In this document: positions 3,079 through 34,226 of the stretch, piece after piece | How the letters are laid out: each line of letters starts with the position of its first letter | How positions within the stretch are numbered: position 1 is the first letter of the stretch | NCBI GenBank assembly: GCA_027448865.1 | Contig: DAIDMR010000329.1 | Location: 1 to 44,127 of the forward strand | DNA from: Vampirovibrio sp. | Lineage (GTDB): Bacteria; Cyanobacteriota; Vampirovibrionia; Vampirovibrionales; Vampirovibrionaceae | Length of the DNA: 44,127 nucleotides | Reading direction: 5' to 3' | Program-made: the position numbers and the translations under genes | Notes under the pieces: model-generated | The model's input: only the letters and a program-made list of their open reading frames with translations | What the model was told of the DNA's origin: nothing | Databases searched by the model: none

Positions 3079-3163
3079 GGGTGCGTCAGGTCAAAAACTA
3101 TCAACATTTTTGAGGTTTCGGGTTTTAAATAATTAAGTGTGTCGTCTGTTGAATCAATCGACG

Positions 3164-3169
3164 TATAAT
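3164..3169 (+). promoter_or_regulatory. Candidate -10 element for the small gene at 3211
   Basis: A perfect TATAAT hexamer lies 41 bases before the ATG at 3211. The hexamer 16 bases upstream (TCGTCT) is a poor -35, so activity is uncertain. It lies between rnpB (minus) and the small plus-strand gene, where a promoter is expected. Confidence 0.4.
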
Positions 3170-3210
3170 TTTGACGTTGTTGGTTTAGTTCGAAGTTAGG
3201 AAAACCAGTT

Positions 3211-3507: not shown

Positions 3508-3555
3508 ATCGCCCGTGAAATGCGTTCATGGCAAAGCCGCCAGGTTCTACTTGCG

Positions 3556-4407: not shown

Positions 4408-4593
4408 CCGATTCTCCCCAGCTTAGGAAACCATGTTACTGACCGCTGACCCGACGGGCCTTCTGCCCCGATGAAAAGGGTTCGACTTCCCAGTTCGTGC
4501 CTGATACTATGCTTTTCTATTCTTTTTTTTATTTATTATCCCCTTTTTAAACGCATTGGCCACCCCTTGGCTGGTGGAGAAACCGAAACGCCC

Positions 4594-5262: not shown

Positions 5263-5369
5263 ACGACGACTTACGCTGGTGCCAGCTTCAGCTTTTGTTT
5301 GAAAACGGGGTTTGTTCCAGCTACGCTATGGGGATATTTCAATGATTCAATCCAGAAAAGGAGCATCCC

Positions 5370-6185
5370 ATGCCTGCCACTGAAGTCAATGAAGTCCCTC
5401 AAGCCGCCGTTAAAGGCTTATTGGCCGGAAAAACCGGCTTAATCTTTGGGGTGGCCCACAAAACCAGCATCGCCTGGGCCATTGCCCAAGCCCTCAGCGC
5501 CGCTGGCATGCGGTTGGCCTTCACCTACCAGGGCGAGCGCCTGGAAAAGAACGTGCGTGAGCTGGCGGAAACGCTGGAAGGCTCCCTGATTTTGCCCTGC
5601 GACGTCACCAACGACGCTGAAATCCAGTCCGTGTTCGACGCCGTGGGCCAGGAATTTGGCCAACTGGACACCCTGGTACACAGCGTGGCCTTCGCCAAAA
5701 AAGAAGATCTGTCCGGCTCCTTTGTAGATACGTCTCGTGATGGCTACCTGCTGGCCCAGGACATCAGCGCCTATTCCCTGACCGCTTTGACCAAGGCCGC
5801 GGTTCCTCTGTTTGAAAAAGCCGGTGGTGGCAGCGTGGTGACCTTAACCTATCTGGGTGGGGAGCGTGTGGTGGAAAACTACAACGTGATGGGCGTGGCC
5901 AAAGCCGCTTTGGAGATGAGCGTGCGCTATCTGGCCGCCGATTTGGGCCAGAAAAACATTCGGGTGAATGCCATTTCCGCAGGCCCCATTAAAACCTTGG
6001 CTGCCCGTGGCATTTCCGGATTCTCCAATATTCTGGGATACATGGAAGAGCACACCCCCCTCAAGCGGAACACCGAAACCGGCGAAGTGGCCGATACGGC
6101 ATTGTTCCTGGCCAGCCATCTGTCCCGTGGCGTCACCGGGGAAGTCATCCACGTGGATTCCGGCTTCCACATCATGGGTTTCTAG
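5370..6185 (+). CDS. fabI: Enoyl-[acyl-carrier-protein] reductase (NADH), FabI
   Basis: It catalyses the last reduction of each type II fatty-acid elongation cycle, trans-2-enoyl-ACP to acyl-ACP. The 271-residue protein has the FabI form of the Rossmann start (GKTGLIFGVAHKTSIAWAIA), the LVHSVAFA block, and the catalytic Tyr and Lys in NYNVMGVAKAAL (Tyr-x6-Lys), which separates FabI from ordinary short-chain dehydrogenases. It ends in the family-typical VDSGFHIMGF. A strong ribosome site AAAGGAG lies 7 bases before the ATG. A terminator follows the gene. This is the triclosan-target enzyme of the pathway. Confidence 0.96.
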   Translation: MPATEVNEVPQAAVKGLLAGKTGLIFGVAHKTSIAWAIAQALSAAGMRLAFTYQGERLEKNVRELAETLEGSLILPCDVTNDAEIQSVFDAVGQEFGQLDTLVHSVAFAKKEDLSGSFVDTSRDGYLLAQDISAYSLTALTKAAVPLFEKAGGGSVVTLTYLGGERVVENYNVMGVAKAALEMSVRYLAADLGQKNIRVNAISAGPIKTLAARGISGFSNILGYMEEHTPLKRNTETGEVADTALFLASHLSRGVTGEVIHVDSGFHIMGF

Positions 6186-6212
6186 ACGGTCTCCAAAAAA
6201 ATCGCACCCTTT

Positions 6213-6259
6213 CAAAGCCCGCTTCTGATACCAGTGGCGGGCTTTGAGCGTAATTTTTT
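6213..6259. terminator. Rho-independent terminator after fabI
   Basis: A perfect 10-bp stem (CAAAGCCCGC with GCGGGCTTTG, loop 14 nt) followed within a few bases by TAATTTTTT. It closes the engB-fabI unit. The metallothionein gene ends on the other strand just beyond, so the hairpin may serve both directions. Confidence 0.85.
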
Positions 6260-6275
6260 GAGCAAAAAAAGACAG

Positions 6276-6500
6276 TTATGAATGAGAGTCGGTTCGTTCT
6301 GCCGACACTTTGCCCATGTCATCGGTGGGCAAGGAGTAACAGGTGCAATTGGCGTGCCCGCAGCCCGGATAGTTCTGGTGGCCTTCGGCGCATTGCTTGC
6401 CGCAATAATAAAGACCGCCCTTAATGACCACACCGGGGTCCTGATGATCCACCTCGCACAAACAGCGGGGACAAGCGCAAACTTCCATAATCGTTGTCAT
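6276..6500 (-). CDS. smtA: Cyanobacterial-type metallothionein (SmtA/BmtA family)
   Basis: A 74-residue zinc-binding protein that buffers or detoxifies zinc and cadmium in the cytoplasm. It carries the whole ligand set known from Synechococcus SmtA in the same order: CACPRCLC, then YYCGKQC, then a histidine in EGH, then GCGHANCTC, giving nine cysteines and two histidines. It has a ~20-residue tail beyond the usual end. The start at 6500 is chosen because a GGGAGGG ribosome site lies 7 bases upstream; the track starts at a TTG two codons earlier. Gene order places it 42 bases after the pentapeptide-repeat gene in the same direction. No SmtB-type repressor gene is present in the window. Confidence 0.9.
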   Translation of the reverse strand: MTTIMEVCACPRCLCEVDHQDPGVVIKGGLYYCGKQCAEGHQNYPGCGHANCTCYSLPTDDMGKVSAERTDSHS

Positions 6501-6542
6501 TCCCAAACCCTCCCGTTCAAAATCCCGACCTCGGCAGTCCGT

Positions 6543-7370
6543 TTAATCCGACGCCCCCCTTTCCCGCATCCGGTTTCCTGCGGGATCAAACCCCTGCGGG
6601 AAGCGAGTCCGTCCGTCATAGACCGCTCCGGCCAGCAAAGCCTGGCTTAAATGGCTCCCCTCATCAAAACTGGTATCGCATACATCGGCCTTTTCCAGAT
6701 GGGACTCCACCAGATCGGTTCCCTGAAAATAGGCGTGCCGCATGTTGGCCTCTTGCAAGTTACCCTGGTGCATGGGCACCCCTTCAAAATGGGCGCCTTC
6801 CATATTGGCCTGAGACAGATCCACATCCACCATGCTGGAAGGGTTACCCTGTAAGGCCATCAAATGCCCTTCATGTCCCATATCCATGCGAAACAAATTG
6901 GCCTGATGCAGGTTCACCTGTTTCAGCCGGGCACCTTCCAGATCCGCTCCGCTCAGGTTGGCGCCCATCAGGTTGGTACCGGATAAAAGGGCATTAAACA
7001 GGGTGGTACCAGTTAAATCGGCCCCTTGCAGATTGGCATTGGTCAGATCCACGCCGGTTAAAATGGCGTTAAAAATTTTGGCCCCTTGCAAGTCAGCCCC
7101 GATTAAAGAAGCGCCTTTTAAAACCGCGCTGGATAGATCGGCGCCCACCAAACTGGCCCCGTCCAAAATGGCTGCGGATAAGTCCGCGTTGACCAAACTG
7201 GCCTGATTGAAATTGGCATGACCAAGGCTGGCTTGCTTAAAATTGGCTTCATCCAGGGTAGCCTTGGCAAAGTTGGCCTCATGCAAATAAGCGCTCTCAA
7301 AAACAGCTCGAGACAACCGTGCGTACGCATAATTCACCGCTTCCAAATGCTGTCCCTTGCAGCAGCGCAT
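6543..7370 (-). CDS. Pentapeptide-repeat protein
   Basis: 275 residues built almost wholly of A(N/D)LXX-type pentapeptides (for example LVGADLSSAVLKGASLIGAD), which fold as a right-handed quadrilateral beta helix. The start at 7370 (MRCCKGQHLEAVNY) has an AGGGGAGA ribosome site 7 bases upstream; the track extends 54 codons further without repeat character. No signal peptide or membrane segment. Such proteins are abundant in cyanobacteria and their relatives and mostly lack a known role; a DNA-gyrase-protecting Qnr-like role is possible for the fold but not supported by anything specific here. It sits just downstream of fliY and upstream of the metallothionein gene. Confidence 0.9.
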   Translation of the reverse strand: MRCCKGQHLEAVNYAYARLSRAVFESAYLHEANFAKATLDEANFKQASLGHANFNQASLVNADLSAAILDGASLVGADLSSAVLKGASLIGADLQGAKIFNAILTGVDLTNANLQGADLTGTTLFNALLSGTNLMGANLSGADLEGARLKQVNLHQANLFRMDMGHEGHLMALQGNPSSMVDVDLSQANMEGAHFEGVPMHQGNLQEANMRHAYFQGTDLVESHLEKADVCDTSFDEGSHLSQALLAGAVYDGRTRFPQGFDPAGNRMRERGASD

Positions 7371-7580
7371 GGCTGAGTCTCCCCTGAGTTGACGACTGGA
7401 ACGTGCAGGATTTTCAGAATTCAGTCTAGCACTTTGCCCAAAACCCGCCATTCGCCACTCGGACATTTCGACGGTTGAAAGTCCTTGGTGGAAAAGCTCA
7501 GGTGAAGCTGCCTCTGCAAAGCCTCGATCCACAGCGCCTTTTCCGGGCGTCCTCTAGCAGCATTAAAAAGGCCTGAGCCC

Positions 7581-8675
7581 TTACAAGCCCCGCAACCGTT
7601 CCGCCGGAGAAATAATGCTGGTAATCCGCAAGCCAAAGTTATCTTCAATGACCACCACTTCACCCTTGGCGATCAACTTGCCATTGGCCATTAAATCCAC
7701 CGGCTCCCCGGCAATGCGATCCAGTTCAATGACTGACCCTCGGGTCAACTCCAGCACGTCCTTAATGGGTAACTCGGTTCTACCCAGCTCCACGGTCAGG
7801 TTGAGCGTCACATCCATGACCAGAGAGAGATTCTTGTTCTCCTCACCATACACATTGGGCTGATGATCGAACGACCCAAATTCCACCGGACGAACGGTCA
7901 CCGGATCCACGTGAACCCCACTCCCAACTGCGGAGCGAGCATGGGGTGTGGCGGTTCCAGCCATGGCCGGTTGAGGCTCTGCGTGCGCACTGATCTGGGC
8001 AGACGCGGGAGCCTCCATATCCCTGGCGGCAGCATCCATAGTAGCCATTTCGGGCCCACCCCGGGCGGCGTCAATGGACATAAACAGGGCCACCTGCTCT
8101 TTCAACTCCGATGACACCCGAAGCTCCATCATTTCCAGCACCGTTTCCTGGTTGGCCTTCATCTGTAAATTGGTCAACACAAACGGTTCCGATAAAACCT
8201 TGGGCAAGCACTGGGCCAGCATATCGCTGGAATAGGCAATCACTTCCGGGTTGTTGATTTCCACGGTTTCATGCAACACAGAGGCCATCCCGGTGGCTGC
8301 CGAATTCATCATCTGACTCATCAACTCGCCCACAGCGCCCAGTTGCAGCTCGGTCAATTCCTCATCACTGCCTTCCTCCGTGCTGCCCAGCATCATGCCA
8401 GCCAGCTTGCGCACATCGGAGTTTTTAACGATGTACAGGGCCGTGGTAAAAATCCCTTTGACAAACTGCACCATGATGATGGTCTTGGGCGCATCCCCAA
8501 AGGGAATATCCATGCCCGCCAGATTCTCGTATTCACTAATCTGGGGCGGGGCAATCTCAATCTCCTGACCCACCAGAATGCCCAGCGTGGAACCGGCCGC
8601 ACCCATGGCGATACTGGATACTTCGCTAATCGCGTCAAGTTCTTCTTTGCTTAAACCGCCATTCAACTCGTTCAT
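7581..8675 (-). CDS. fliY: Flagellar motor switch protein FliY (CheC-like + FliN domains)
   Basis: Part of the cytoplasmic C-ring that sets rotation direction. Residues ~10-200 form a CheC/CheX-like domain and the last ~80 residues a FliN/SpoA domain (LGRTELPIKDVLELTRGSVIELD), joined by an Ala/Pro/His-rich linker; this two-part layout defines FliY. In both places where CheC-type phosphatases have the E-x2-N site, Ser replaces Asn (SEVSSIAMG, GELMSQMM), so CheY-P hydrolysis may be lost. I use the ATG at 8675, which overlaps the fliM stop as TGATG, a sign of translational coupling; the track begins one codon earlier at a GTG. Confidence 0.93.
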   Translation of the reverse strand: MNELNGGLSKEELDAISEVSSIAMGAAGSTLGILVGQEIEIAPPQISEYENLAGMDIPFGDAPKTIIMVQFVKGIFTTALYIVKNSDVRKLAGMMLGSTEEGSDEELTELQLGAVGELMSQMMNSAATGMASVLHETVEINNPEVIAYSSDMLAQCLPKVLSEPFVLTNLQMKANQETVLEMMELRVSSELKEQVALFMSIDAARGGPEMATMDAAARDMEAPASAQISAHAEPQPAMAGTATPHARSAVGSGVHVDPVTVRPVEFGSFDHQPNVYGEENKNLSLVMDVTLNLTVELGRTELPIKDVLELTRGSVIELDRIAGEPVDLMANGKLIAKGEVVVIEDNFGLRITSIISPAERLRGL

Positions 8676-9718
8676 CACAGGCCAAATCCCTCAATCGATT
8701 CCTCAATTTCCACACTGTCATACATATACACGGCCAGCTTGTCTTTCAACCGCCCGGGACGACAATAAAACTTGGGGCGTCCATTCACACAGGCCAGCAA
8801 ATCATCGGTGGCGGCCCTGTCCAGACGAATGACATCCCCCACCGAAAGGCCCAGCAAATCGCCCACGGTTAATTCGGTTCCACCCAGCAACACCTGAATG
8901 GGAATTTTGGCGTAATTCAGTTTTTGCAGAATTTTTTCCTGCTCTTCAAACGGAATATTAGACTGCTGACGGTGGAAAATATGCTGGGCGCTCAGCTGAC
9001 TAATCACCCCTTCCAGCACCGGGTAGGGAATACACAGACTGATCAGGCCGGAATGCTTGTTGCCCAGATTCACTTCAAAGGTAATCAGGGCCACAATCTC
9101 TCCGGGGGTAGCCACCTGAATCAGGGCGTAACTTTCCTCAAAGCCCACCATACTGGCGTTCACATTCATCATGGAGCGCCACGCCTCTTCCAGCGATAAA
9201 ATGGCCCGATCCAGCACCCGCCGGATCAGGGACTGCTCAATATCGGTCAACTCACGGGCCTTGGCCTCCGGGGTGCCCGGCCCGCCCAGCATGCGATCAA
9301 TCACGCTGGAGGTGACTTCATAACCAAATCCCAACAAAACTTGTCCTGGCAACGGGTCCAGCTCCAGAATGCTGACGGTCATGGGACTGGGCATGGAACG
9401 CACAAATTCGTCGTAAGTCAGCTGATCAACGGAAACCACGTCAATTTCCACGGTCATCCGTAAATAAGCGGTCAGCACCAGCCCCAACTGCCGGGCAAAA
9501 CTCTCGTGGATGGTTTGCAGGGCTCGTAAGTGATCCTTGGAAAATTTATCGGGTCGGCGAAAATTGTACAGCTTATAATTGCGTTTCTCGTGATGCACAG
9601 AAGGCATGGAGGGTTCAGCACCCAGTGCGGCAGTGCCGGTGCCGGGCGCTGGCGCGTTTTGATCCACTCCCACGGAGAGGGAGGAAAGCAGGCTATCAAT
9701 TTCTTCTTGAGATAGCAT
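8675..9718 (-). CDS. fliM: Flagellar motor switch protein FliM
   Basis: The C-ring protein that binds phosphorylated CheY and couples it to the rotor. The N-terminus has the CheY-binding peptide (MLSQEEIDSLLSSL), followed by the KLYNFRRPDKFSKDHLRALQTIHE block, the CheC-like middle domain and a C-terminal SpoA/FliN-like domain (VLLGGTELTVGDLLGLSVGD). At 347 residues it has the usual length. It overlaps fliY and lies 124 bases downstream of fliL. An AGAGG sequence is 13 bases before the ATG, a weak ribosome site. Confidence 0.95.
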   Translation of the reverse strand: MLSQEEIDSLLSSLSVGVDQNAPAPGTGTAALGAEPSMPSVHHEKRNYKLYNFRRPDKFSKDHLRALQTIHESFARQLGLVLTAYLRMTVEIDVVSVDQLTYDEFVRSMPSPMTVSILELDPLPGQVLLGFGYEVTSSVIDRMLGGPGTPEAKARELTDIEQSLIRRVLDRAILSLEEAWRSMMNVNASMVGFEESYALIQVATPGEIVALITFEVNLGNKHSGLISLCIPYPVLEGVISQLSAQHIFHRQQSNIPFEEQEKILQKLNYAKIPIQVLLGGTELTVGDLLGLSVGDVIRLDRAATDDLLACVNGRPKFYCRPGRLKDKLAVYMYDSVEIEESIEGFGL

Positions 9719-9842
9719 TCAGAATCGATGAACCTCTGTCAATTTCCACTGATGACCGATAACCGTGAACCTGTAAACCAAAACCGGATGAAATCCGATG
9801 CCAGAGCGCTTTTTCCGCAGGGCGTCCTGAAGTCTTTATACC

Positions 9843-10625
9843 CTAACGCTGGATAATGAAATCCTGAAAATTCACTCGTAAAATTTGATAATCCGGGGCC
9901 ATAATGGCATTGAGCTGTTCCTTGATTTCATCTTTCAGGGCCTCCTGACCTTCCAGAGTGGCCAGCAACGTGGCGTTGCGTTTCATTAAAGACCCATTGA
10001 CCACGTCCCGAATGGTGGGTACGTACTTGGACATATTTTTCTTGAACACGTCCTCACAACTGGGCCCAGCTTCACCCCCGCTAGCCAGCAGGGTTCTATC
10101 CACCGGCGCCGCAGCACCTACGATTTTGCCCTCACCCAGCGTTCCATCGTTAAGCGGGATGGCCTCGGCATGATGCTCAATGTAGCAATTCTGGGCGTCG
10201 GGAACTTTAACGCTCAAGGCCATTTTGGCCCGTAAATACTGGCTACCCGGTAAGCTCGGATCGGGCTTTAAATTCACCATGAACTCATCCAGTTCCAGGT
10301 TCATGCCCACCTGACTACCGGGCGTTTCCGTGGAAGCGCCATCGTGACCAGCGGGGGCCTCCCCTTCGGCCCCTCCGCCGCCTGCAGCATGGGCCAGTTT
10401 TCCAATTTCGGGCACCACAAACATGGTGGTCATCAGATAGGAGGAACCAACGGAGCCGCCAATGGTGGCCACCAGAATAACCACCACCATAATGATGAAC
10501 TTCAGATCAAGGCCACCGCCGCCACCACCCGAACTACCTTCAGCAGCCGGAGCCGCCGGGGCCGCTGCGCCACCTTCGCCTTCCACTTTGGGTTTTAAAT
10601 CCTTCGGCTTGGTCGGTCTAGCCAT
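9843..10625 (-). CDS. fliL: Flagellar basal-body protein FliL
   Basis: A single-pass inner-membrane protein that surrounds the stator units and supports torque. After a ~40-residue cytoplasmic stretch rich in Ala, Pro and Gly, there is one membrane helix (LKFIIMVVVILVATIGGSVG), then a periplasmic domain with the FliL-type LDEFMVNLKPD and the C-terminal QILRVNFQDFIIQR. At 260 residues it is longer than most FliL proteins, because of the N-terminal extension and an insertion of ~30 residues (NCYIEHHAEAIPLNDG region). It starts 6 bases after motB, with AGAGGA as ribosome site. Confidence 0.88.
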   Translation of the reverse strand: MARPTKPKDLKPKVEGEGGAAAPAAPAAEGSSGGGGGGLDLKFIIMVVVILVATIGGSVGSSYLMTTMFVVPEIGKLAHAAGGGGAEGEAPAGHDGASTETPGSQVGMNLELDEFMVNLKPDPSLPGSQYLRAKMALSVKVPDAQNCYIEHHAEAIPLNDGTLGEGKIVGAAAPVDRTLLASGGEAGPSCEDVFKKNMSKYVPTIRDVVNGSLMKRNATLLATLEGQEALKDEIKEQLNAIMAPDYQILRVNFQDFIIQR

Positions 10626-10631
10626 TGAAAT

Positions 10632-11477
10632 TCAATCCTCTCGACTTGGGGAAATGCCGCCAGCGCCTGATAAATCCTCAGTGGCGGCAGGGGGTTCTTG
10701 AAGGGCCATCGTCTCATTCAATACCACTATATCCACTCGGCGGTTTTTCTGTTTCCCTTCAATGGATGAATTCTGGGCCACTGGTTTGAACTCCCCGTAG
10801 CCGGTCGCGGACAGTTGCTCCGGTCGATAATGCTTGCCCTCGATCAGGTAGCGCACGATATTGGTGGCCCGAGCCGTGGATAATTCCCAGTTGGAGGGGT
10901 AGCGGGATGTGGTGATGGGCGTGTTATCGCTGTGGCCTTCTACTCTGATTAACCGAGCCTGAGCGCCCAGTGTTTTTTTGAGTTGACTGATCAATTGCTT
11001 TAACGTGTTGCGAGCCTTCGGCGATAACTCGGCACTGCCCGGGGCAAACAAAATGTTGTCTTTCAGTGAAATAACCACACCGCGTTCCTGCTGACGAATT
11101 TCCACACCTTGCATTTTTAGGCGCTGCCTGAGTTGAGCCGACAGCGAATCCGATCCGGTCTTTTGGGCGTTCGGCAGCTTTTGGGGAGACTTTAATTTGG
11201 CCTGAGTGGCGACCGCTTGAGCGGCAGGCTTTGAGGCTGGCTGCGGCTTCAGTGGCTCTGGCTGGGCGGCAGTGACCAACACCAGAAACAAGCCTAATAA
11301 CAGCGTCAGCAAATCGGCATAGGGTACCATCCACCGATTGTGGCCGGTATGCACGTTCGATTCCATCTCCCGTTCCAGTGTCTCCAGCTTTCGGAACAAG
11401 GCCCTCACCGGAACAGCCTGAGCAGTGGATACGGCGGAAGAATCCGCGTGGTTGCGCCGATTACCAATGTGCGTCAT
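10632..11477 (-). CDS. motB: Flagellar stator protein MotB
   Basis: The peptidoglycan-anchored half of the proton-driven stator. It has one membrane helix at about residues 48-70 (MVPYADLLTLLLGLFLVLVT) containing the essential proton-carrying Asp in YADLL, a Pro/Ala/Gln-rich linker, and an OmpA-like peptidoglycan-binding domain with VEGHSDNTPITTSRYPSNWE and STARATNIVRYL. The first ~45 residues ahead of the helix are longer than usual; a start further in (MESNVHTGHNRW) is possible but has no good ribosome site. Separated from motA by 16 bases. Confidence 0.93.
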   Translation of the reverse strand: MTHIGNRRNHADSSAVSTAQAVPVRALFRKLETLEREMESNVHTGHNRWMVPYADLLTLLLGLFLVLVTAAQPEPLKPQPASKPAAQAVATQAKLKSPQKLPNAQKTGSDSLSAQLRQRLKMQGVEIRQQERGVVISLKDNILFAPGSAELSPKARNTLKQLISQLKKTLGAQARLIRVEGHSDNTPITTSRYPSNWELSTARATNIVRYLIEGKHYRPEQLSATGYGEFKPVAQNSSIEGKQKNRRVDIVVLNETMALQEPPAATEDLSGAGGISPSRED

Positions 11478-11493
11478 GCCACTGCCTGCCCCT

Positions 11494-12375
11494 TCATTCC
11501 ATCATGTCCACACTGGCGCCCACTTGCAGAAAATCATCCCGCAAGACGGCCTGTGGCGGCAATGCGGTAGCGTACCCATCCGGTCTGTCGGCGTAGGACT
11601 TTCGCCCCGCGCGAGGTACGGTCAGGGTATCTGAACCCGAGATAAAGGCGTTCAATCGCTCTTCGATAATCATGGGATGCTCACCGGCCCGAATGCACAG
11701 GATGGCCTCCAGCAGCAAAGTCAGCATAAACCATTCATCCCGGGCCCGTTGCCGCAATTTACCGGCAATGGGCAGTAAAAACAGGTTGGACAGGGCCACT
11801 CCGTACAGGGTCGCGCTGAAAGCGCTGGCCACCCCCTGACCCAAAATGGCAGGCTGATGGGACGCTTGCACAATGTGGATCAGGCCAATCACCGCCCCGA
11901 TAATCCCCATGGTAGGGGCAAAGCCGCCAGCAGTTTCGTAAACGCGGGCGCAATCCTGACTCTCCCGATAGCAGACCTCAATCTCGGTGGATAAACTGTC
12001 CCGGATAAACTGCTCCGATCGGTTGTCCAGCACCAGTTGCAAGCCCTTGCGCAGAAAGGGAATTTCAATGCTGTCAATAATGGGCTGCAGGGCCAAAATA
12101 CCCTCATCCCGAACAAAGCCCACCACCTCCAGAACATACTGAATGGTCTTGCGGGTTTCCAGATGACTTTCCGCACTGCCGCCCCGCAAGGCCTGCAGCG
12201 CCCGCTTCAGCGTGGGTACATGGAAACTGACCAGCGTGGCGGTCAAGGTGCCCCCAAACACCACCAGCAAGGCTTCCGCATTCAACAGGGTATTCAGCGG
12301 GACATGCCCCAGAACCAAAGCGGCCCCTAAAATCAGGAGCCCCAGGATTAAACCGGCCAGGGTCGTAAAATCCAT
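11494..12375 (-). CDS. motA: Flagellar stator protein MotA
   Basis: The proton-channel partner of MotB. Four membrane helices are visible: two near the N-terminus (LAGLILGLLILGAALVLGHV and AEALLVVFGGTLTATLVSF) and two in the second half (FAPTMGIIGAVIGLIHIV and ASAFSATLYGVALSNLFLLP), with a cytoplasmic loop between them. The GIIGAVIGLIH block is the family signature. I take the ATG at 12375 (MDFTTLAG), which fits the family start; the track starts 8 codons earlier at a GTG. It is the first gene of a minus-strand run motA-motB-fliL-fliM-fliY. Orientation of a proton-type rather than sodium-type stator is not decided here. Confidence 0.94.
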   Translation of the reverse strand: MDFTTLAGLILGLLILGAALVLGHVPLNTLLNAEALLVVFGGTLTATLVSFHVPTLKRALQALRGGSAESHLETRKTIQYVLEVVGFVRDEGILALQPIIDSIEIPFLRKGLQLVLDNRSEQFIRDSLSTEIEVCYRESQDCARVYETAGGFAPTMGIIGAVIGLIHIVQASHQPAILGQGVASAFSATLYGVALSNLFLLPIAGKLRQRARDEWFMLTLLLEAILCIRAGEHPMIIEERLNAFISGSDTLTVPRAGRKSYADRPDGYATALPPQAVLRDDFLQVGASVDMME

Positions 12376-12467
12376 GCGCAACACACCTTCGCTTTCCACA
12401 GAGGATGAACCACTCTCAGCCTAAAAGATTAACCCGGCGCTTTCCTCCTCCGAACAGGGGATCAGCG

Positions 12468-12513
12468 TTTCGCAAAAGCCGAAATGGAAGCGGCCATTTC
12501 GCCAACCGCGAAA
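12468..12513. promoter_or_regulatory. Nested 46-bp palindrome upstream of motA
   Basis: Outer arms TTTCGC and GCGAAA enclose inner arms GAAATGG (12481-12487) and CCATTTC (12494-12500). With one mismatch the inner stem extends to 10 bp. It could be an operator for the flagellar operon or a folded 5' leader. It lacks a T-run, so a terminator is unlikely. Confidence 0.4.
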
Positions 12514-12546
12514 TTCTGCTGTTTTACAGTTTGAGACCCCTCAGTG

Positions 12547-12573
12547 TTGCCTGTTTGTGTTTTAACGTATAAT
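12547..12573 (+). promoter_or_regulatory. Candidate promoter for the acyl-CoA dehydrogenase gene
   Basis: TTGCCT (12547-12552) and a perfect TATAAT (12568-12573) with a 15-base spacer, shorter than ideal. It would give a leader of about 170 nt before the ATG at 12752. Confidence 0.4.
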
Positions 12574-12751
12574 GATGCTTGCGGTGGTTCGCTTCGTGAG
12601 GGTACATTTCATTCCGGGTCAAACAGCAACCCGACAAGCCATTCAATAAGAGGTCACACCACCTGCCAGCATCACGGCGTTTTAAAAGACGTTTTAAAAA
12701 GCATCAAAACCAGTCAACACCTAGTATAAGAGTGATTCGGGGTACTTGCAT

Positions 12752-13972
12752 ATGAATTTTGAATTGACCGAAGAGCAACGGCAAATTTGGCAATGGGCCA
12801 AGGAATTCGCGGATCAGGAAATTGCCCCGGTTGCCGCCATTAACGATCAGGATTCCAAATTTGATTTTGACCTGCTGAAAAAAATCGCCGATCAGGGCTT
12901 TTTCGGGGCCATTTTGCCGGAGGAATACGGCGGACAAGGCATCGACCATATTTCCTACGCCCTGATGACCGAGGAAATCGCCCGGGTCTGCTCCTCCACC
13001 CGCACACTGTTTTCAGTGCAAATTTCACTGGTGGAAAAGCCCATTTGGTACTTCGGCACCGAGGAACAAAAAAAGAACTACCTGCCCCGCCTGGCCACCG
13101 GTGAAATCATCGGTTGCTTTGGCCTGACCGAACCCAACGCCGGAAGCGACGCCGGGAATCAGCAAACCATGGCCACCCCGGATGGGGATTATTACGTGTT
13201 GAACGGTCAAAAAACATGGATCTCCAACGGCTGTATCTCGCAATTAGCGCTGATTATCGCCCAGACCGACAAATCGAAGGGGCATAAAGGCATGTGCGCC
13301 TTTTTGGTGGAAACCGACACCCCCGGCTTCAGCACCCGGGAAATCAAGCCCAAGCTGGGCTTGCGGGCTTCCATTACCTCCGAACTGTTTTTGGACAACG
13401 TGCGGGTACATAAATCCCAAATGCTGGGCCATCCGGGTGAAGGCTTTAAAGTGGCCATGTACTGCCTGGATCAGGGGCGCTTCAGCGTAGCCGCCGGTTC
13501 GGTGGGCGTCAGTCAGGCCTGCATTGATATTTCCACCCGGTACGCTATGGAACGGGAAGCCTTTGGCCAGAAAATCGGTGAGTTCCAGATGCTGCAACAA
13601 CTGATTGCCGATATGGCCGCCGACTGCGAAGCAGGTCGCTTTTTGGTGCTACACGCCGCCGACCTGAAGGACAAGGGCGTACGCAACACCCGGGAAACCT
13701 CCATGGCCAAACTCTTCTGCGCAGAGGCGGCCATTCGGGCCTCCAACAGCGCCGTGCAAATTTTTGGGGGTTACGGCTTCTCGGAGGAATACCCGGCGGC
13801 CCGCTACTACCGGGATGCCCGTGTCCTCAACCTCTACGAGGGCACCAGCCAGATCCATCGCCTGATTATCGCCCAGGATGAATTGGGGATTCGTCCGGCC
13901 AATGGCCCCGGCAGCCCTATGACCCCGCTGGACAGGCTCTCTCCTCGCAAGCCTTTGCCGCCCCGGACTTAA
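12752..13972 (+). CDS. Acyl-CoA dehydrogenase
   Basis: A flavoprotein that makes the alpha-beta double bond in acyl-CoA, the first step of beta-oxidation or of branched amino-acid breakdown. The 406-residue protein has the family layout: N-terminal helices, the FAD-binding CFGLTEPNAGSD and WISNG blocks in the beta domain, and the C-terminal helical domain with ASNSAVQIFGGYGFSEEY and the catalytic glutamate in LYEGTSQIHR. The Glu position is that of short-chain/butyryl-type enzymes, but chain-length preference cannot be fixed. Start at the ATG 12752, two codons inside the track start (a TTG). No other beta-oxidation gene lies beside it; proline dehydrogenase follows. Confidence 0.93.
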   Translation: MNFELTEEQRQIWQWAKEFADQEIAPVAAINDQDSKFDFDLLKKIADQGFFGAILPEEYGGQGIDHISYALMTEEIARVCSSTRTLFSVQISLVEKPIWYFGTEEQKKNYLPRLATGEIIGCFGLTEPNAGSDAGNQQTMATPDGDYYVLNGQKTWISNGCISQLALIIAQTDKSKGHKGMCAFLVETDTPGFSTREIKPKLGLRASITSELFLDNVRVHKSQMLGHPGEGFKVAMYCLDQGRFSVAAGSVGVSQACIDISTRYAMEREAFGQKIGEFQMLQQLIADMAADCEAGRFLVLHAADLKDKGVRNTRETSMAKLFCAEAAIRASNSAVQIFGGYGFSEEYPAARYYRDARVLNLYEGTSQIHRLIIAQDELGIRPANGPGSPMTPLDRLSPRKPLPPRT

Positions 13973-14010
13973 AACCCGGATTTAAAACAGAATAAAGCTG
14001 CCTTCACAGT

Positions 14011-14040
14011 CCACTATCCATTAAGCCACTGTCCATTAAG
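14011..14040 (+). repeat. 15-bp tandem duplication before proline dehydrogenase
   Basis: CCACTATCCATTAAG (14011-14025) is followed directly by CCACTGTCCATTAAG (14026-14040), one mismatch. It lies in the 160-base gap between the acyl-CoA dehydrogenase and proline dehydrogenase genes and encodes nothing. Confidence 0.8.
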
Positions 14041-14138
14041 GAAATGAAACCGAAGGAAAACACAGCGATTCCAAGCCATTTTCAGCTATGATAATCACAG
14101 ATTCAAGCTGAAAAAATCGGCTTGAGATGAGGGCCTTC

Positions 14139-15047
14139 ATGCGGATTCTGGATCAACTCATCGTCCTGACCTTGCCCTTTGCCCCCAAGGCATTGGTCAA
14201 AAAATTCGCATGGCGTTATGTGGCCGGGGAAACCCTGGAGGAAATGCTGGAGACGGTTCGCCGGCTGAACGCCCAGGGGGCCATGGCCACCGTGGATGTG
14301 TTGGGCGAATTCATTCACGCGCCGCAAGAGGCCCATCAGGCCGCTGCCCTTTATAAAACGGTGCTGGAGGCCATCGCCAGAGAGCGACTGGACGCCAATA
14401 TTTCGGTAAAGCTCAGCCAGATGGGCTTGTTGCTGGATAAAACCCTGTGCTATGAGATTATGCACGATTTGGTAGCCACAGCGGCCAAGGCCCGCATTTT
14501 TGTGCGCATCGACATGGAAGATTCGGCCTGCACCGGCGACACCATTGCCCTGTATTTAAAGTTGCGCAAGCAGTTCGATAACGTGGGCATTGTGCTGCAA
14601 GCCTACCTGCGCCGCACCGTGGGCGATGCCCGACAGATTATGAAAGACTTGAGCAAGATTAACAGCATCGCCAATTTTCGGCTGTGCAAGGGCATTTACC
14701 GGGAGCCCCGCACCCTGGCCTGGCCCAATCACACCCTCATCAACAAAAATTACACCCTTATTCTGGAAGAAATGTTCAAGCAGCAAGCCTATGTGGGAAT
14801 CGCCACCCATAACGAGGAACTGGTTTGGGAGGCCCTGCGCCTGATTGATCAGTATCGGTTAAAGCCTCACGAGTATGAATTTCAGATGCTGTTGGGCGTT
14901 GACCCGGAATTGCGGCAAATTCTGCTGAACGCCGGACACCGGGTGCGGGTTTACGTGCCCTTTGGTCAGGACTGGTTTGCCTACTGCACCCGCCGCCTCA
15001 AAGAGAACCCCTCCATTGCCGGGCATCTGCTGAAAAATTTATGGTGA
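14139..15047 (+). CDS. Proline dehydrogenase
   Basis: FAD-dependent enzyme that oxidises L-proline to pyrroline-5-carboxylate, the first step in proline use. The 302-residue, single-domain form is recognised by its barrel motifs: ISVKLSQMG, FVRIDMEDS, LQAYLRRT, FRLCKGIYRE, ATHNEE and the C-terminal VRVYVPFGQDWFAYCTRRLKEN, where the last arginines bind the proline carboxylate. The start at 14139 is preferred because GAGGG lies 5 bases before it; the track uses an ATG four codons earlier. The partner P5C dehydrogenase is not in the window. The stop codon lies inside the left arm of the palindromic element that follows. Confidence 0.93.
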   Translation: MRILDQLIVLTLPFAPKALVKKFAWRYVAGETLEEMLETVRRLNAQGAMATVDVLGEFIHAPQEAHQAAALYKTVLEAIARERLDANISVKLSQMGLLLDKTLCYEIMHDLVATAAKARIFVRIDMEDSACTGDTIALYLKLRKQFDNVGIVLQAYLRRTVGDARQIMKDLSKINSIANFRLCKGIYREPRTLAWPNHTLINKNYTLILEEMFKQQAYVGIATHNEELVWEALRLIDQYRLKPHEYEFQMLLGVDPELRQILLNAGHRVRVYVPFGQDWFAYCTRRLKENPSIAGHLLKNLW

Positions 15048-15190
15048 GGCAGACCCGTCGCAACCCGTTTATAAAGCTGCGTGCAGCTCGAACACACAAT
15101 AGAACTATTTCTGGCAGCACTGCCAAACATCCATTTATAACTCGCTGTACTCAAACAGTTATAAACGGGTTGCGACGGGTCTGCCTCACC
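15043..15190. repeat. Palindromic element, copy A (32-bp perfect arms, 84-nt core)
   Basis: Bases 15043-15074 and 15159-15190 are perfect 32-bp inverted repeats around an 84-base core. The core is alignable without gaps to the 84-base core of a second element at 33054-33197 (about 61 of 84 identical by hand). The last 16 core bases, CGCTGTACTCAAACAG, are identical in both. Internal small hairpins are seen (TGGCA-GCAC-TGCCA; CTGT-ACTCAA-ACAG). The arms differ between the two copies but are self-complementary in each. The stop codon of proline dehydrogenase lies in the left arm. It may be a MITE/REPIN-like mobile repeat or a structured RNA; it has no T-run, so it is not a standard terminator. 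Confidence 0.9.
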
Positions 15191-15243
15191 GATTGACAAT
15201 TAACCAATTAATGATGAGATAGACGTCGGTAACGCATGCACCG

Positions 15244-16905
15244 TTATGGCAAACGGCGAAAGCGTTTCAGCAGGCGTCCGCCAATGCGTTCCTGCAGATA
15301 CTGGGCCTCACTGACCTTCAATTGCAAGGTCACCAGCACGTACACCCCAATGCCAACAGCGGCAGCCAGGGCAATCCGCCCGTATTCCCACAAGGCAGGC
15401 GCCACCGGTAACCCTTGGGTCAAGGGCGTTAATTGCAACAGCCACTGAGTGCCGAAGCAAGTCACCATCATGAGTACACCCGCCATGGCCAACTTGCCAA
15501 AGGGCAGCACCATTTCCGCAAAGCCCAAATCAGGGATGTGTTTTTTAGAGAGAATGCCCAGCAAGGTCATGTTGATAAAGGTCACCAGCGTAATGGCCGC
15601 GGTAATGCCCCCCACGCCCAAGTGCAGTTGCGTCACCAGCAACCAGTTAAGAACCGCTTTGACCCCAATGGCCAATAAGCCCACCATCAACGGGGTGCGG
15701 GAGTCCTGAAAGGCATAAAACACACGGGTAATGGAATCTCTGGCAAAGTAGGGAATAATTTGCAAAGCCTGATAAACCAAGGCCAGCGACACCAGCTCGG
15801 TGGCCTTGGCATCGAACTTGCCGTGCTGGAAAATCAGCCGGATGAGTGGTTCCGTGTACATCATCATCAAAATCAGCAGAGGAATGCTGATCAGCCACAG
15901 GGAAATCACCCCGGTTTTAAAGGTGCGCTTGATCTCTTCAAAGTTGCCATCCGCGGCAGCCCGGCTGAACCGGGGGAAAATAGGAACCAGCAAAGCGGTT
16001 TGCAGCACACCCAGTGGCAACTGCACCAGGCGATTGGACAGCGTGACCGCCGACCAGCCCCCTGCTCCCAGCGAAGCGGCAAAGAACATATCCACATAGG
16101 TCACCAGTTGCCCAATGGTGGTACCCACGGTGGCCGGAAACAACAATTCACCGGCCTGACGAATTTCCGGCGCTTTCCAGTCCAAAGCGGGCTTTAAGGT
16201 AAACTTCTGGCGGAAAAATTCCGGCAACTGCATCACCACCTGCAAAATGCCACCGGCCAACGTCGACCAGGCCAGCACCATGCCCGTGGTGTCGCCGGGC
16301 ACCAGCCACAGCCCCAGCAGGATCGTGACACTCATAGCCACCGGCGATAAGGAGGGCCACACAAAGCAATTGTAGATATTGGATAGCCCGTACAAAATGC
16401 CCACCACCCCACCGGCCAAAATACAGGGACTCATCACTTGCAGTTGGGCAGCGGCGGAATCAATCAGGGAGGGGGCCGCCCCGTGCAAAATCAGCCCCAT
16501 GATGGGACGGGCCAGCAAAAAGGTCAGAACCGACAAGACGGTAAAGACAATGCCGGTCAGGGTGATAAACGTACTGGCCAAACGTCTGGCACGCTCGGAG
16601 GGGGCCTCCTGATCCTGAATCAGGCGGGAAAAAACCGCCACCGTGGCCGTGTGAAACGGCCCGCCCAGCCCACCCAGCAAAATAATGGCGAAAGAAGGCA
16701 ACTGAAAGGCGGCGTAATAAGCGTCGCTGACCAGCGAGGTGCCGTAAGCGTACATGACCGCCCAATCCCGAATAAACCCCAACAGCTTGCTAAAAATGGT
16801 GACCACGGCAATCAGCCCGGCGGCCTTTAACAGGCTGGGAGTCCGGCTGGATTTGGCTTGCGGGACGGGGGACTGATCGTCGGGGATGGGGGATTCTGCG
16901 CTCAT
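15244..16905 (-). CDS. murJ: Lipid II flippase MurJ (MviN)
   Basis: An integral membrane protein of the MOP superfamily that flips the peptidoglycan precursor lipid II to the outside. The protein has about 14 membrane helices, starting with LIAVVTIFSKLLGFIRDWAV, the MviN hallmark, and continuing with SDAYYAAFQLPS. At 553 residues it has the usual length. The track start at 16917 overlaps a TATAAT hexamer; if that is the -10, transcription starts after it and the ATG at 16905 (MSAESPIPD) is the real start. The next minus-strand gene upstream (BioD-like) ends 76 bases before. Confidence 0.94.
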   Translation of the reverse strand: MSAESPIPDDQSPVPQAKSSRTPSLLKAAGLIAVVTIFSKLLGFIRDWAVMYAYGTSLVSDAYYAAFQLPSFAIILLGGLGGPFHTATVAVFSRLIQDQEAPSERARRLASTFITLTGIVFTVLSVLTFLLARPIMGLILHGAAPSLIDSAAAQLQVMSPCILAGGVVGILYGLSNIYNCFVWPSLSPVAMSVTILLGLWLVPGDTTGMVLAWSTLAGGILQVVMQLPEFFRQKFTLKPALDWKAPEIRQAGELLFPATVGTTIGQLVTYVDMFFAASLGAGGWSAVTLSNRLVQLPLGVLQTALLVPIFPRFSRAAADGNFEEIKRTFKTGVISLWLISIPLLILMMMYTEPLIRLIFQHGKFDAKATELVSLALVYQALQIIPYFARDSITRVFYAFQDSRTPLMVGLLAIGVKAVLNWLLVTQLHLGVGGITAAITLVTFINMTLLGILSKKHIPDLGFAEMVLPFGKLAMAGVLMMVTCFGTQWLLQLTPLTQGLPVAPALWEYGRIALAAAVGIGVYVLVTLQLKVSEAQYLQERIGGRLLKRFRRLP

Positions 16906-16915
16906 AGTACTGCCC

Positions 16916-16921
16916 ATTATA
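16916..16921 (-). promoter_or_regulatory. Candidate -10 element of murJ
   Basis: A perfect TATAAT on the minus strand, 10 bases before the ATG at 16905. Transcription from it would give an almost leaderless mRNA. No good -35 lies at the right distance; a TTGACA is present but about 32 bases upstream. Confidence 0.35.
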
Positions 16922-16993
16922 CGCTGAGGTCACGGATTGGGATCGGTGGCGTTTGTCAAAGGAGCCTGAAAAGAGAAGATAAGAGAAAAGAAG

Positions 16994-17728
16994 TTAATAG
17001 GGCACTAGCAAATTCAGGGCCTGCTGAATGGGCAATAAGTCCACGCCCAGTTCCGTATTGCGGAACAGATTGCCCTGCTGCAAGGCTTCCACCGAGATAC
17101 TGGGGCTGTAGGCAATCTCTCCCAGATAGGGAACGTCCGTATGGCCTCGTAGAAACAGAACATCCTGCTCCCATTCGGGCACTCGGGCCGGTTGGGTCTC
17201 CACGGCCAACCAGCCGATGGCTTTGGCATCCCGAGACCACAGATAGGACAACATGGGGGTCATGGTGCCAATGAGGTCAGGCATTTTGGCCGTCACCAAC
17301 ACCAAAGGAATCTCCAGCGCTCTGGACAAATCCACGGCGTCATTCAACGCCAGATCGACAAAGCGAATGGGTGAGGCCAAACTGCCGGGGGCCTCCAGAA
17401 TATAGGGATAGACCCGCTTGCGGCAAAGCTCCTGCAAATGCTGCCAATCTCCGGCGGTCACCTTGCGGGGAGAGGACCTGGAAAATAATTCCAACGGCTG
17501 TTTGGGCGGGCTGAGTCGATCAAAAAAGGCCTGCTCATAACCATCCCGAATGGTCACTTCCGGCTGAAAGCTGAAAGGTTTGATGGCCTGCACGGTAAAA
17601 CCCAGATCATTCAATACCCCGGCCAGCCCGGCACAAGCCACGCTTTTGCCGCATTTGGCATGGGTGCCGACCACCAGCAAGCCCCGGGCATCCAGCAGAT
17701 TTCGATCGGGTGGCTTCACCTCCCACAT
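16994..17728 (-). CDS. BioD-like (dethiobiotin synthetase superfamily) ATPase
   Basis: 244 residues with a P-loop of the BioD kind (VVGTHAKCGKSVA, residues 20-31; typical BioD has GTDTGVGKT) and a second block LEAPGSLASPI in the place of the BioD EGAGG motif. Strands and helices are in the order of dethiobiotin synthetase, which closes the ureido ring of biotin with ATP and CO2. The EGAGG site is changed, and no other biotin gene is near, so the substrate may differ. The gene starts 4 bases after the tRNA nucleotidyltransferase gene, pointing to one mRNA. Confidence 0.65.
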   Translation of the reverse strand: MWEVKPPDRNLLDARGLLVVGTHAKCGKSVACAGLAGVLNDLGFTVQAIKPFSFQPEVTIRDGYEQAFFDRLSPPKQPLELFSRSSPRKVTAGDWQHLQELCRKRVYPYILEAPGSLASPIRFVDLALNDAVDLSRALEIPLVLVTAKMPDLIGTMTPMLSYLWSRDAKAIGWLAVETQPARVPEWEQDVLFLRGHTDVPYLGEIAYSPSISVEALQQGNLFRNTELGVDLLPIQQALNLLVPY

Positions 17729-17732
17729 GCGC

Positions 17733-19406
17733 CTAGCCCCCCGCCTCAGGGTGATGATCCCGCCCTGACTCGGCTTTTAACTCGGCCATACGCTCCGCGT
17801 GGGCAGCCAGCTGATTCTGGATGTATTGCACCTCTTCCAGCCGATCCGGCACATGCCCGGCCAGCTTGGCATGCAACAACTGATCCAGCAACTGGCCAAT
17901 CACCTTGCCTTCGGGCACCCCCAAGCCGATTAAATCATTGCCATCCAGCTCCACCTCGGTTTTTTCCCACTTGCGCTTATATTTTACAAAGGCTTCCAGC
18001 ACGATTTTATAACGATTTCCCCCGGCCAGCGCCAATTCCAGAATACAAGCCACCACGGTAATCAAGTGCAGCCCATGGAACAGATCGTAAATGGCCCCCG
18101 GCGATGAATACTCATGCAAGGTGCTAAAGCGCTCGGGCACCCCATCCTTCAATTTGCGGAACTGCTCCACAAACTCCCGCTCGTTGCGGGTTAACCCCAA
18201 ACGGGCCAGCGTTTTCTGAAAGTCTTCCGGTTCAAAATCCCGAAACAAAAAGCACAGGTAAACATCAAACACAAAATCGGCATCCAGAAAAGGACTCAGT
18301 GGGTCCATCAATTCCGGCAAAAAAGGCCCAAGCCCGGCCAGTTTCTCAATCAATTCCGGGCTGGGAGAAAAAGTAGTTTCCATATTAAACAGTCGGTAAC
18401 ACTGGTGCTGCATAAAGTAACGCAGCCAGTTACTTTTGGCCGGTGATTCCTCCACCCGCAAAAAGCCTTTCAGCTCTTGCTTGATTCGCTCCCCGCCGCC
18501 TTTATAGCAGGCGGCCCCCACCTGCAAAAACCGCTGAAGCAAGGTGGCGGTTTCCTCAGCCAAATCAAAATCGAACCGGGCGCAAAACTTCAGGGCCCGT
18601 AAAATACGACTGGGATCCTCAAAGAAAGAGATGGGGTGCAACACCCGAATCTCCCGCACTTCAATGTCCCGCAAGCCATTGGCGAAGTCCATCACTTGCC
18701 CCAGATGATGCACGGAAAATGAGAGGGCATTCACGGTAAAGTCCCGACGAACAATATCGTTCACCAACGGGACTCCCCGGTTGACCACCACCGGCAAGGC
18801 TCCGCAGTGCGGATAGATTTCCTGCCGGGTCGAGGCCACGTCAAACATCAAATCATCTTTGTAACTGATTTTGGCCGTACCAAACTCGGGAAACTTCTCG
18901 ATGAGGGTAAAATTGCGGGAATTGGCCAGTAAAAAGTCCGCCAAAGCCAGAGCATCGCCTTCCACCGTAATGTCCACATCCCGCACGGACAGACGTTTTT
19001 CCTGATATAGCAGCAAATCCCGTGTGATGCCACCGATTACATAGGCTTTCAGGCCCATCTTCTGAATCAGGGATTGCAATTCGTACAAGGCAGCCACAAA
19101 ATACACCGGAAAAAACGCGGACAAGCGTTTGGCCAAATCCAGGGTCGCCTGCATATTGGCCCGGTTCTCGTGACACAAGGGAGAGCGCTCCGGAATGGCC
19201 ACACTGTCAACGGGTAATTCTCCCAAACCCATGGTGGCCATTTTACTGAGGTCATCGCAAAAAGCCAGCCAAATTCGCCCCTGCACGTCACTGAAGCTGA
19301 CCGCGTCGGCGTGCTGCTCCCGGGCCTGGCTCAGCGCTTCGGCAATGGGCAGGGACTGTGCCACCTCGATTCGGGCATCCTGGTTTAAATGGCGTTTATC
19401 GTTCAT
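17733..19406 (-). CDS. tRNA nucleotidyltransferase / poly(A) polymerase family protein
   Basis: A class II nucleotidyltransferase that adds CCA (or part of it, or poly(A)) to RNA 3' ends. Motifs in order: GGITRD at residues 125-130, RDVDITVEGDA at 142-152 (metal-binding aspartates), RRDFTVNALSF, the head-neck motif EDPSRILRALKFCARFDF, and ERIKQELKGFL. At 557 residues it is longer than common CCA enzymes: ~100 residues precede the catalytic head without a recognised domain, similar to long cyanobacterial forms. Motifs alone do not tell CCA-adding from A-adding. The start codon lies inside a 14-bp tandem repeat; no ribosome site is evident. Confidence 0.88.
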   Translation of the reverse strand: MNDKRHLNQDARIEVAQSLPIAEALSQAREQHADAVSFSDVQGRIWLAFCDDLSKMATMGLGELPVDSVAIPERSPLCHENRANMQATLDLAKRLSAFFPVYFVAALYELQSLIQKMGLKAYVIGGITRDLLLYQEKRLSVRDVDITVEGDALALADFLLANSRNFTLIEKFPEFGTAKISYKDDLMFDVASTRQEIYPHCGALPVVVNRGVPLVNDIVRRDFTVNALSFSVHHLGQVMDFANGLRDIEVREIRVLHPISFFEDPSRILRALKFCARFDFDLAEETATLLQRFLQVGAACYKGGGERIKQELKGFLRVEESPAKSNWLRYFMQHQCYRLFNMETTFSPSPELIEKLAGLGPFLPELMDPLSPFLDADFVFDVYLCFLFRDFEPEDFQKTLARLGLTRNEREFVEQFRKLKDGVPERFSTLHEYSSPGAIYDLFHGLHLITVVACILELALAGGNRYKIVLEAFVKYKRKWEKTEVELDGNDLIGLGVPEGKVIGQLLDQLLHAKLAGHVPDRLEEVQYIQNQLAAHAERMAELKAESGRDHHPEAGG

Positions 19407-32716: not shown

Positions 32717-33053
32717 AATGGTACCTTCTTGCAAGAGGTGCTTTTAACGAGAGGGAATGATGTAAGACGTTAGTACCTTCGATTGGTGTCGTGGGTGAGA
32801 GAGGGGTGGGGCAGGCCCGGCGGCAACGAGAACTCTGGCAGGACCTTGCCTGACCATCTTTGCCAATCTGCCCGGAGGAAATTTACCAGAGGTTTCGAGT
32901 GAATTTCCCGACTGTTGGATTAGCCTATTTCAATAAAAGATTAACAGAAAAAAAAGTGCTTTTCAGCCTGTAAAAACAGGATTCGCAATTTCAGAATCCA
33001 TTGCCTGGGGGATATCGGAAAGTCCAAAACCGGGAGGCTCACCCTTTAAAATA
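32717..33053. other. Intergenic region upstream of prs, no gene seen
   Basis: 337 bases between prs (minus) and the palindromic element. A GC-rich part near 32800-32880 has small hairpins (GGCAGG-AC-CTTGCC) but lacks the features of tRNA or SRP RNA. No clear promoter for prs could be set. Confidence 0.45.
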
Positions 33054-33197
33054 GGCAGGGCTCCCTTCACCACACGTTTGTAAAACTGCGCTCAGCTCAA
33101 ACAAACTGTGGAACAGCTTTTGGCAAAGTTGCCCAGCATCTATCCTTAACCCGCTGTACTCAAACAGTTACAAACGTGTGGCGAAGGGAGCCTTGCC
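33054..33197. repeat. Palindromic element, copy B (30-bp arms, 84-nt core)
   Basis: Arms 33054-33083 and 33168-33197 pair over 30 bp with two mismatches that are G-T pairs on one strand. The 84-base core matches that of copy A (15043-15190) without gaps. The element is flanked by TTAAAATA on both sides (33046-33053 and 33198-33205), which looks like an 8-bp target duplication from insertion. The right flank contains the stop codon of the gene at 33198. In both copies the element sits at the very end of a gene. Confidence 0.88.
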
Positions 33198-34226
33198 TTA
33201 AAATAACTGGTTGACGAAAGCCAGCCCATCATCGGTCAGGCTGTACTCGCTGACTTCCGCAGTACCGCTTAAATCCGGCACCATGGACAAATACCCCCGG
33301 GACAAGGCCGCCTCCAGGGCACTGTGGTTCACCGGCGTCAGACCGGATTTCACCAGATTGGCGTTAATCCGCTTCAGGGAGAAACAGGCTTGCGCCTCCA
33401 CCTGACTGAGGTAGTAGGCAGCCAGCAGCAAATAATCCTCGGAACTGCCGGGATGGGCCTGATCGCACAAATCGGCCAGTGAGTTCACCAAGTCCAGATT
33501 CATGGGCTGGGCAGCCGACACCGGGGACTGCTCATAAAGCGTCTCAATCACCGGAGCGGTGGGCAACGTCGGCGGGGGAGCTTCCAAATCACGCATCACC
33601 GTATCCATCACCGATTCAAAATCATCCTTGGGCGTTGTACTGGCTGGCTGGACTGTCGCCGATGGCGGCACCACCGATAAAGCAGGCGGGGCCGAAACCT
33701 CTGGAGGCTGGGCGGGCAGAGCAACAGGGGCGGCGGTAACCGATTCAACCGTCGGCGGCAGGGGGACGACGGGCTCCGGGAGCGTTTGCACCGGGGCAGC
33801 CATGGCCGGAGCGGAAGGTTCTGGCACGGAAGGTTCTGACAAGGGAGCCGAGACTGGCAACACCGGGGGTTCCGGGACGATGACTGCTGGAGCAGGCTCT
33901 GAAGCGGGAGAGGCGGGGGACTCAGCCGCAACTGGAACCGGGGCCACAGGGGCAGTGGGGACAACCACCGGCACGGGAGGCGGGATTTCTGGCGTAATCT
34001 CAGAAACCGCGGGGCCAGAAACTACGGGTGTACTGGCCGGAACAACGGGATGGGGGGGGGCCACCGAAGCGGGTTTGGGGAGGCTGACCGGCACATAACT
34101 GTCATCCAGCAAAATGCGAAACCACTTGTCCATTTGCTTGGAGACGAAATAGACATCATCCGAGGACAGGTTGATAAACAGCCCATCTTTTTTAAGGCTC
34201 ATTTCATAACGATGTGGGGCATCCAT
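33198..34226 (-). CDS. Three-part protein: small N-domain, Pro-rich linker, winged-helix end
   Basis: 342 residues. Residues 1-42 form a small domain (YEMSLKKDGLFINLSSDDVYF, then QMDKWFRILL) that resembles the 42-residue product of the neighbouring ORF. A ~190-residue linker of Pro, Val, Ala and Ser follows. The last ~100 residues resemble a winged helix (LLAAYYLSQ...RINANLVKSGLTPVNHSALEAALSRGYLSMV...YSLTDDGLAFV). A DNA- or protein-binding regulator or adaptor is a fair inference. I use the ATG at 34226, preceded by AAGGAG at 10 bases; the track begins 12 codons earlier. A TATAAT lies at 34406-34411 upstream. Confidence 0.7.
   Translation of the reverse strand: MDAPHRYEMSLKKDGLFINLSSDDVYFVSKQMDKWFRILLDDSYVPVSLPKPASVAPPHPVVPASTPVVSGPAVSEITPEIPPPVPVVVPTAPVAPVPVAAESPASPASEPAPAVIVPEPPVLPVSAPLSEPSVPEPSAPAMAAPVQTLPEPVVPLPPTVESVTAAPVALPAQPPEVSAPPALSVVPPSATVQPASTTPKDDFESVMDTVMRDLEAPPPTLPTAPVIETLYEQSPVSAAQPMNLDLVNSLADLCDQAHPGSSEDYLLLAAYYLSQVEAQACFSLKRINANLVKSGLTPVNHSALEAALSRGYLSMVPDLSGTAEVSEYSLTDDGLAFVNQLF

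Follow-up and report, generated by a model that had tools for sequence, protein, structure and literature searches.

The palindromic repeat that occurs twice in the window (the whole analysed stretch of 44,127 nucleotides of DNA from the predatory bacterium Vampirovibrio) is probably a non-autonomous Vampirovibrio MITE whose arms exchange sequence with each other after insertion, preferably by replication template switching. It represents a new MITE family, in which arm homogenisation and flipping of the core are unusually clear, and, as far as we found, a previously undescribed mobile element in the Vampirovibrionia, non-photosynthetic relatives of cyanobacteria. An earlier note on the same DNA had read the two copies as either a structured RNA or a REPIN/MITE-type mobile repeat, and had attributed the joint variation of their arms to either selection for the stem or correction of one arm by the other.

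Architecture and distribution of the repeat family

The common plan described in that note, inverted arms of 30-32 bp around an 84-base core, agrees with our coordinates and complementarity values for both copies (Table 1). The 32-nt arms of copy 1 (15043-15190) are 100% complementary; those of copy 2 are 94% complementary when delimited as 33053-33083 and 33168-33198, and the natural ends of this copy lie at 33054 (GG) and 33197 (CC). Of the 84 core positions, exactly 61 are identical in the two copies, the last 16 among them, as had been reported. Folding z-scores reach -11.1 for copy 1 as DNA and -9.9 for copy 2 as RNA, with none of 200 shuffles as good in either case. Both copies also touch the stop codon of a gene, copy 1 with its left end and copy 2 with its right target duplication. 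The stop codon at copy 1 is the TGA at 15045-15047, and comparison with sister species shows that the element took the place of the final few proline dehydrogenase codons. Promoter and terminator scans over both copies returned none at the elements. Elsewhere in the window, a bacterial class A RNase P RNA lies at 2639-3038 on the minus strand.

Table 1. Coordinates of the two copies in the window.
Feature	Position	Strand	Remark
Copy 1, left arm (terminal inverted repeat, 32 nt)	15043..15074	+	GGTGAGG end provides the stop codon for proline dehydrogenase gene 14127-15047
Copy 1, core (84 nt)	15075..15158	+	terminates in CGCTGTACTCAAACAG
Copy 1, right arm (32 nt)	15159..15190	+	perfect complement of the copy 1 left arm
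Copy 2, left target site duplication TTAAAATA	33046..33053	+	
Copy 2, left arm (30 nt)	33054..33083	+	
Copy 2, core (84 nt)	33084..33167	+	
Copy 2, right arm (30 nt)	33168..33197	+	
Copy 2, right target site duplication TTAAAATA	33198..33205	+	minus-strand ORF 33198-34262 has its stop codon here

The family extends well beyond this pair and into related genomes, so that the refuting condition named in the earlier note, two copies and none in relatives, does not apply. A covariance model built from 23 copies, the kind of search that the earlier note had proposed, retrieved 31 copies from the genome of the window (G000), 35 from G004, and 26 from G003, that is, 92 copies over three Vampirovibrio species and about 30 per genome. 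At the DNA level, a search of the assembly that contains the window (2.69 Mb in 353 contigs, 76% complete) had given about twenty copies besides the two in the window. The elements measure 80-173 bp, mostly about 144, with arms of about 30 bp, and most start with GG and end with CC; sub-groups with distinct lengths and arms are present, for example L016, L017, and L018 at 151 nt. The distribution is narrow. The covariance model found zero copies in the congeners G001 and G002, the end pattern found none in 13 more genomes of the order, and across a sample of 39 genomes the single match beyond the genus was a 30-nt fragment. The exact core pattern matched Vampirovibrio chlorellavorus NCIMB 11383 as the sole organism in a named genome collection and had no match in IMG/VR; the consensus had none in a plasmid collection.

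Some genomic sites carry a solo left or right end with the other half missing (G003:C1:317601, G003:C3:244696, G003:C10:45807, G004:C23:414689, G004:C27:160584, and G004:C26:449161, the last at the 3′ end of a gene). We considered these six as possible termini of a longer element and rejected them as such, having found no partner end nearby.

A further seven copies reside on MW495066.1 (273,876 bp; loci L172-L177), deposited as 'Microcystis phage MaAM05' (PhiMa05). This record looks like a Vampirovibrio-type chromosome contig rather than a phage genome: it is collinear with window positions 36-18132 and 37682-44127 at about 84-89% identity over long stretches, and it carries housekeeping genes throughout (trpS, glyS, metG, proS, aspS, topA, smc, ftsH, secE-nusG-rplK-rplA, and three tRNAs). 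In each of ten genomes of the family, among them those free of the element, its secE-nusG-rplK-rplA stretch corresponds to one main orthologous place. A published description treats MW495066.1 as a jumbo phage whose set of ribosomal proteins is a record, and also as prophages in Vampirovibrio (PMC13157829, 2026); another found no terminase in it (PMC8093824). The small phage-like structural gene cluster reported for this record could be a prophage remnant.

Target duplications, empty sites, and candidate transposases

The sequences flanking the copies match each other as direct repeats (0.586 versus 0.374 with shuffled partners, sd 0.018), with a sharp peak at a length of 8. The resulting 8-bp target duplication is exact in 11 copies and conserved at 7/8 or better in 26; examples include TTAAAATA on both sides of copy 2, AAAATAAA at L007, and TAATTTAA at L016. 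These eight positions are rich in A/T (81% versus 53% further out). Sister species provide single-copy empty sites, namely L079 versus L102, L078 versus L123, L106 versus L080, and L139 versus L095, and the site of copy 2 is empty in both G004 and MW495066. In G003, the same site (C2 near 293110, locus L162) holds a 12-bp stub, GGCAAGGCTGCC, between two TTAAAATA duplications, apparently what remained after nearly all of the element was deleted between short direct repeats. The family shows several features by which MITEs are recognised: dispersed copies of less than 500 bp with terminal inverted repeats, a fixed 8-bp duplication, empty sites, and no transposase gene.

A search with the end pattern (3 mismatches allowed) of 18 genomes recovered only the elements themselves and solo ends, and no autonomous transposon with matching ends; the transposase loci that we inspected likewise lack ends matching the element. 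The autonomous partner may have been lost, may have diverged, or may lie in missing sequence. Matches to DDE_Tnp_1 were considered as a source and rejected; one of these loci has an inverted repeat (32 bp, 1.2 kb apart), but its sequence is unrelated to the element. The end of the element, GGTGAGGCTGCC, resembles what we take to be the end of IS1, GGTGATGCTGCC, a sequence common in enterobacterial plasmids. A 6.4-kb contig of G003 (G003:C12, locus L145; L143:955-1755) encodes a single 266-aa ORF of an IS1-type transposase (PF03400), which adjoins an 87-aa ORF, and no ends matching the element are present beside it on this contig. An IS1 origin of the element is therefore a weak lead. The RAYT (Y1-type) transposase PF01797 is absent from all five congeneric genomes, with five control genomes positive. 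The MITE half of the earlier proposal is borne out by the 8-bp duplications, the empty sites, and the copy number of about 30 per genome; the REPIN half is not supported, there being no Y1/RAYT transposase in the five congeneric genomes.

Joint change of the arms and inversion of the core

The in-step variation of the arms, previously noted from the two window copies, is real. Arms are 88% identical within a copy and 67% between copies (largest mean in 10,000 permutations, 70%). When 23 copies are aligned, pairing holds for 95.5% of cells, and double changes occur in 23 of 35 pairs, compared with a mean of 10.4 in shuffled controls (0 of 500 as high) and with 6-10 in slid structures. Similarly, the covariation score of the family is 0.354, against 0.106 when shuffled.

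Orthologous insertions, identified as such because their flanks are collinear for up to 1.4 kb, place this change in time: since the arms differ jointly between species at such sites, in-step change occurs after insertion. Across 14 same-site pairs, which are the copies fetched from draft genomes rather than a genome-wide census and rest on automatic alignments of short arms, both arms changed together in 25 columns, versus 4.8 expected under a simple independence model. A further 80 columns changed in one arm alone, so that exchange between arms is not immediate. Copy 1 illustrates the pattern: both its arms read GGTGAGGCAGACCCGTCGCAACCCGTTTATAA in G000, those of G003 are identical save for one left-arm change, and both arms of the MW495066 orthologue read GGTGAGGCTGTCGTCATCCCCCCCTTTATAA, which amounts to six substitutions and two indels, every one of them in both arms.

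The core is inverted between collinear flanks in 4 of 17 same-site comparisons from draft assemblies (L028/L089, L095/L139_2503, L094/L116, and L122/L140), and the cores at these four sites align well in the family orientation and not when reversed. Orientation is kept in the other 13, comprising ten direct comparisons, L137 with MW495066, and two cases inferred from collinear coordinates; the count leaves aside L011/L118 and L080/L106, which are different sites, and L086/L134, which is half deleted. At L028/L089, where the core is reversed, two positions of within-copy arm mismatch remain beside the same flank in the two species, which indicates that the element was not simply reinserted backwards. 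Conceivably, although we would sooner doubt it than assert it, the core still flips in living Vampirovibrio populations, with some 30 loci per genome continuously re-palindromised and reoriented by frequent arm exchange.

The palindrome also reaches into the host DNA. Inverted matches between the flanks exceed those of shuffles at outside positions 1-4, 5-8, and 9-12, and not beyond. At L094/L116, the flanks differ between species yet are palindromic in each (CATTG/CAATG versus GCTTTA/TAAAGC), and at L121 the eight flanking bases form a perfect inverted repeat rather than a direct one. Copying across the element boundary explains these flank palindromes, which a role of the element's RNA would not require.

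Competing explanations and known systems

We propose that the element is a non-autonomous DNA transposon, its core of about 84 bp being too short for a transposase gene, that would have been moved by a transposase acting in trans. Once inserted, its long and closely spaced arms would swap sequence with each other, preferably by replication template switching, in which DNA polymerase would copy one arm from the other (the enzymes performing the exchange are putative). The observed consequences are the joint arm change at a fixed site, the occasional core flip with the arms staying with their flanks, and a palindrome that can extend into the adjoining host DNA and replace the target duplication there. 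Arm homogenisation and spacer inversion, both of which we found at fixed sites, are reported products of template switching between inverted repeats (PMC8604942). By another account, hairpins can arise and persist through it with changes that look compensatory (PMC8794818).

Pre-existing MITE sub-families, with different matched ends already before insertion, could in principle mimic in-step arms, and the family does contain sub-groups such as L016-L018; this account can hardly be right, as one and the same insertion, identified by its 1.4-kb flanks, can have two arms that both differ from one species to another, and bases of the host DNA beyond the element have changed in step too. We consider it rather unlikely that RecA-type or site-specific recombination between the arms, in the manner of an inverton-like switch, makes the homogenisation and inversion in place of template switching. 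Crossing over between inverted repeats would directly give inversion with the arms in place, and for the present data the two mechanisms predict the same outcomes; recombination is the close alternative. Against it, mismatched arms of about 30 bp offer little length for homologous recombination, arm sequences differ between copies, unlike the sites of dedicated invertases, and copying explains more naturally why the palindrome extends into its flanks.

Either exchange mechanism fits better than selection for an RNA stem. A transcribed hairpin (a 3′-end stabiliser, a terminator, or another MITE-derived RNA) kept by compensatory mutations pair by pair would account for the strong RNA-like covariation, the stable folds of both copies, and the better conservation of the core ends than of the core middle among paralogues. 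It would also suit the genomic position of the elements: under simple ORF calls, the neighbouring genes are convergent at 40 copies, tandem at 38, and divergent at 9, compared with 34, 102, and 44 of the other gene pairs in the same loci, so that convergent placement accounts for 46% of copies versus 19% of other pairs (P = 9e-6; divergent, P = 0.008). The element is evidently tolerated where genes end. It may have a role at mRNA 3′ ends, with a mild effect on them, and selection against insertion elsewhere accounts for this placement equally well; under our proposal, the latter rather than a function would have shaped it. The orientation of copies in tandem gaps is even (19:19), which argues against the transcribed hairpin. 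Several further observations do so: the stem covaries, but among imperfect pairs G-U is not enriched over A-C (55:79), and the in-step changes are rich in transversions (12:13 transitions to transversions, compared with 61:72 in the core and 1138:891 in the flanks). Moreover, the arms diverge faster (18.5%) than core (11.9%) and flanks (13.4%), where a constraint on pairing would predict the opposite. The inverted cores and the in-step change beyond the element also count against the hairpin, and Rfam 15, at gathering and lax thresholds, has no match at the elements. Retention of the stem by such selection therefore seems improbable to us. The structured RNA of the earlier note is thus not supported, and of its two explanations for the covarying arms, correction between arms is upheld by the in-step changes at fixed sites and the inverted cores, while stem selection is disfavoured by the G-U counts and the arm divergence.

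Compensatory base changes serve as standard proof that an RNA structure is conserved. The present family mimics this signature, which is better explained here by copying of DNA between arms. Its roughly 100 homologous copies, several of them at orthologous sites in sister species, make it possible to measure the frequency of arm homogenisation and of 84-bp spacer flips. If flipping were indeed ongoing, the loci would be natural replicates for measuring template switching and would show clearly that covariation by itself is no proof of a structured RNA.

In size, long terminal inverted repeats, short target duplication, tens of intergenic copies, and absence of a gene, the element resembles prokaryotic MITEs such as QMITE2 of Coxiella burnetii, which has direct repeats of 7-9 bp, terminal inverted repeats of 23-29 bp, and a core of 113-145 bp (PMC10969869). 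The likeness to QMITE2 is one of description, and the Vampirovibrio element lacks a known source transposon; the sections of that review consulted here do not list in-step evolution of the arms or inversion of the core for QMITE2. Arm homogenisation at a fixed locus and spacer inversion are shared with template-switch mutation at short inverted repeats in yeast (PMC8604942) and in RNA genes (PMC8794818), where the reported inverted spacers comprise a few bases (2-5 substitutions and loops of 4-8 nt, respectively). Unlike those loci, the Vampirovibrio element has a spacer of 84 bp and belongs to a dispersed mobile family. Its core flips between inverted repeats much as in chloroplast noncoding hairpins. 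There, small inversions flip the segment between inverted repeats, and the hairpins are not a mobile repeat family, whereas the Vampirovibrio elements are. Finally, like REPINs and REP elements, the Vampirovibrio elements are dispersed, palindromic, intergenic, and bacterial; they differ from these in the 8-bp target duplications and in the lack of a RAYT/Y1 transposase in their genomes.
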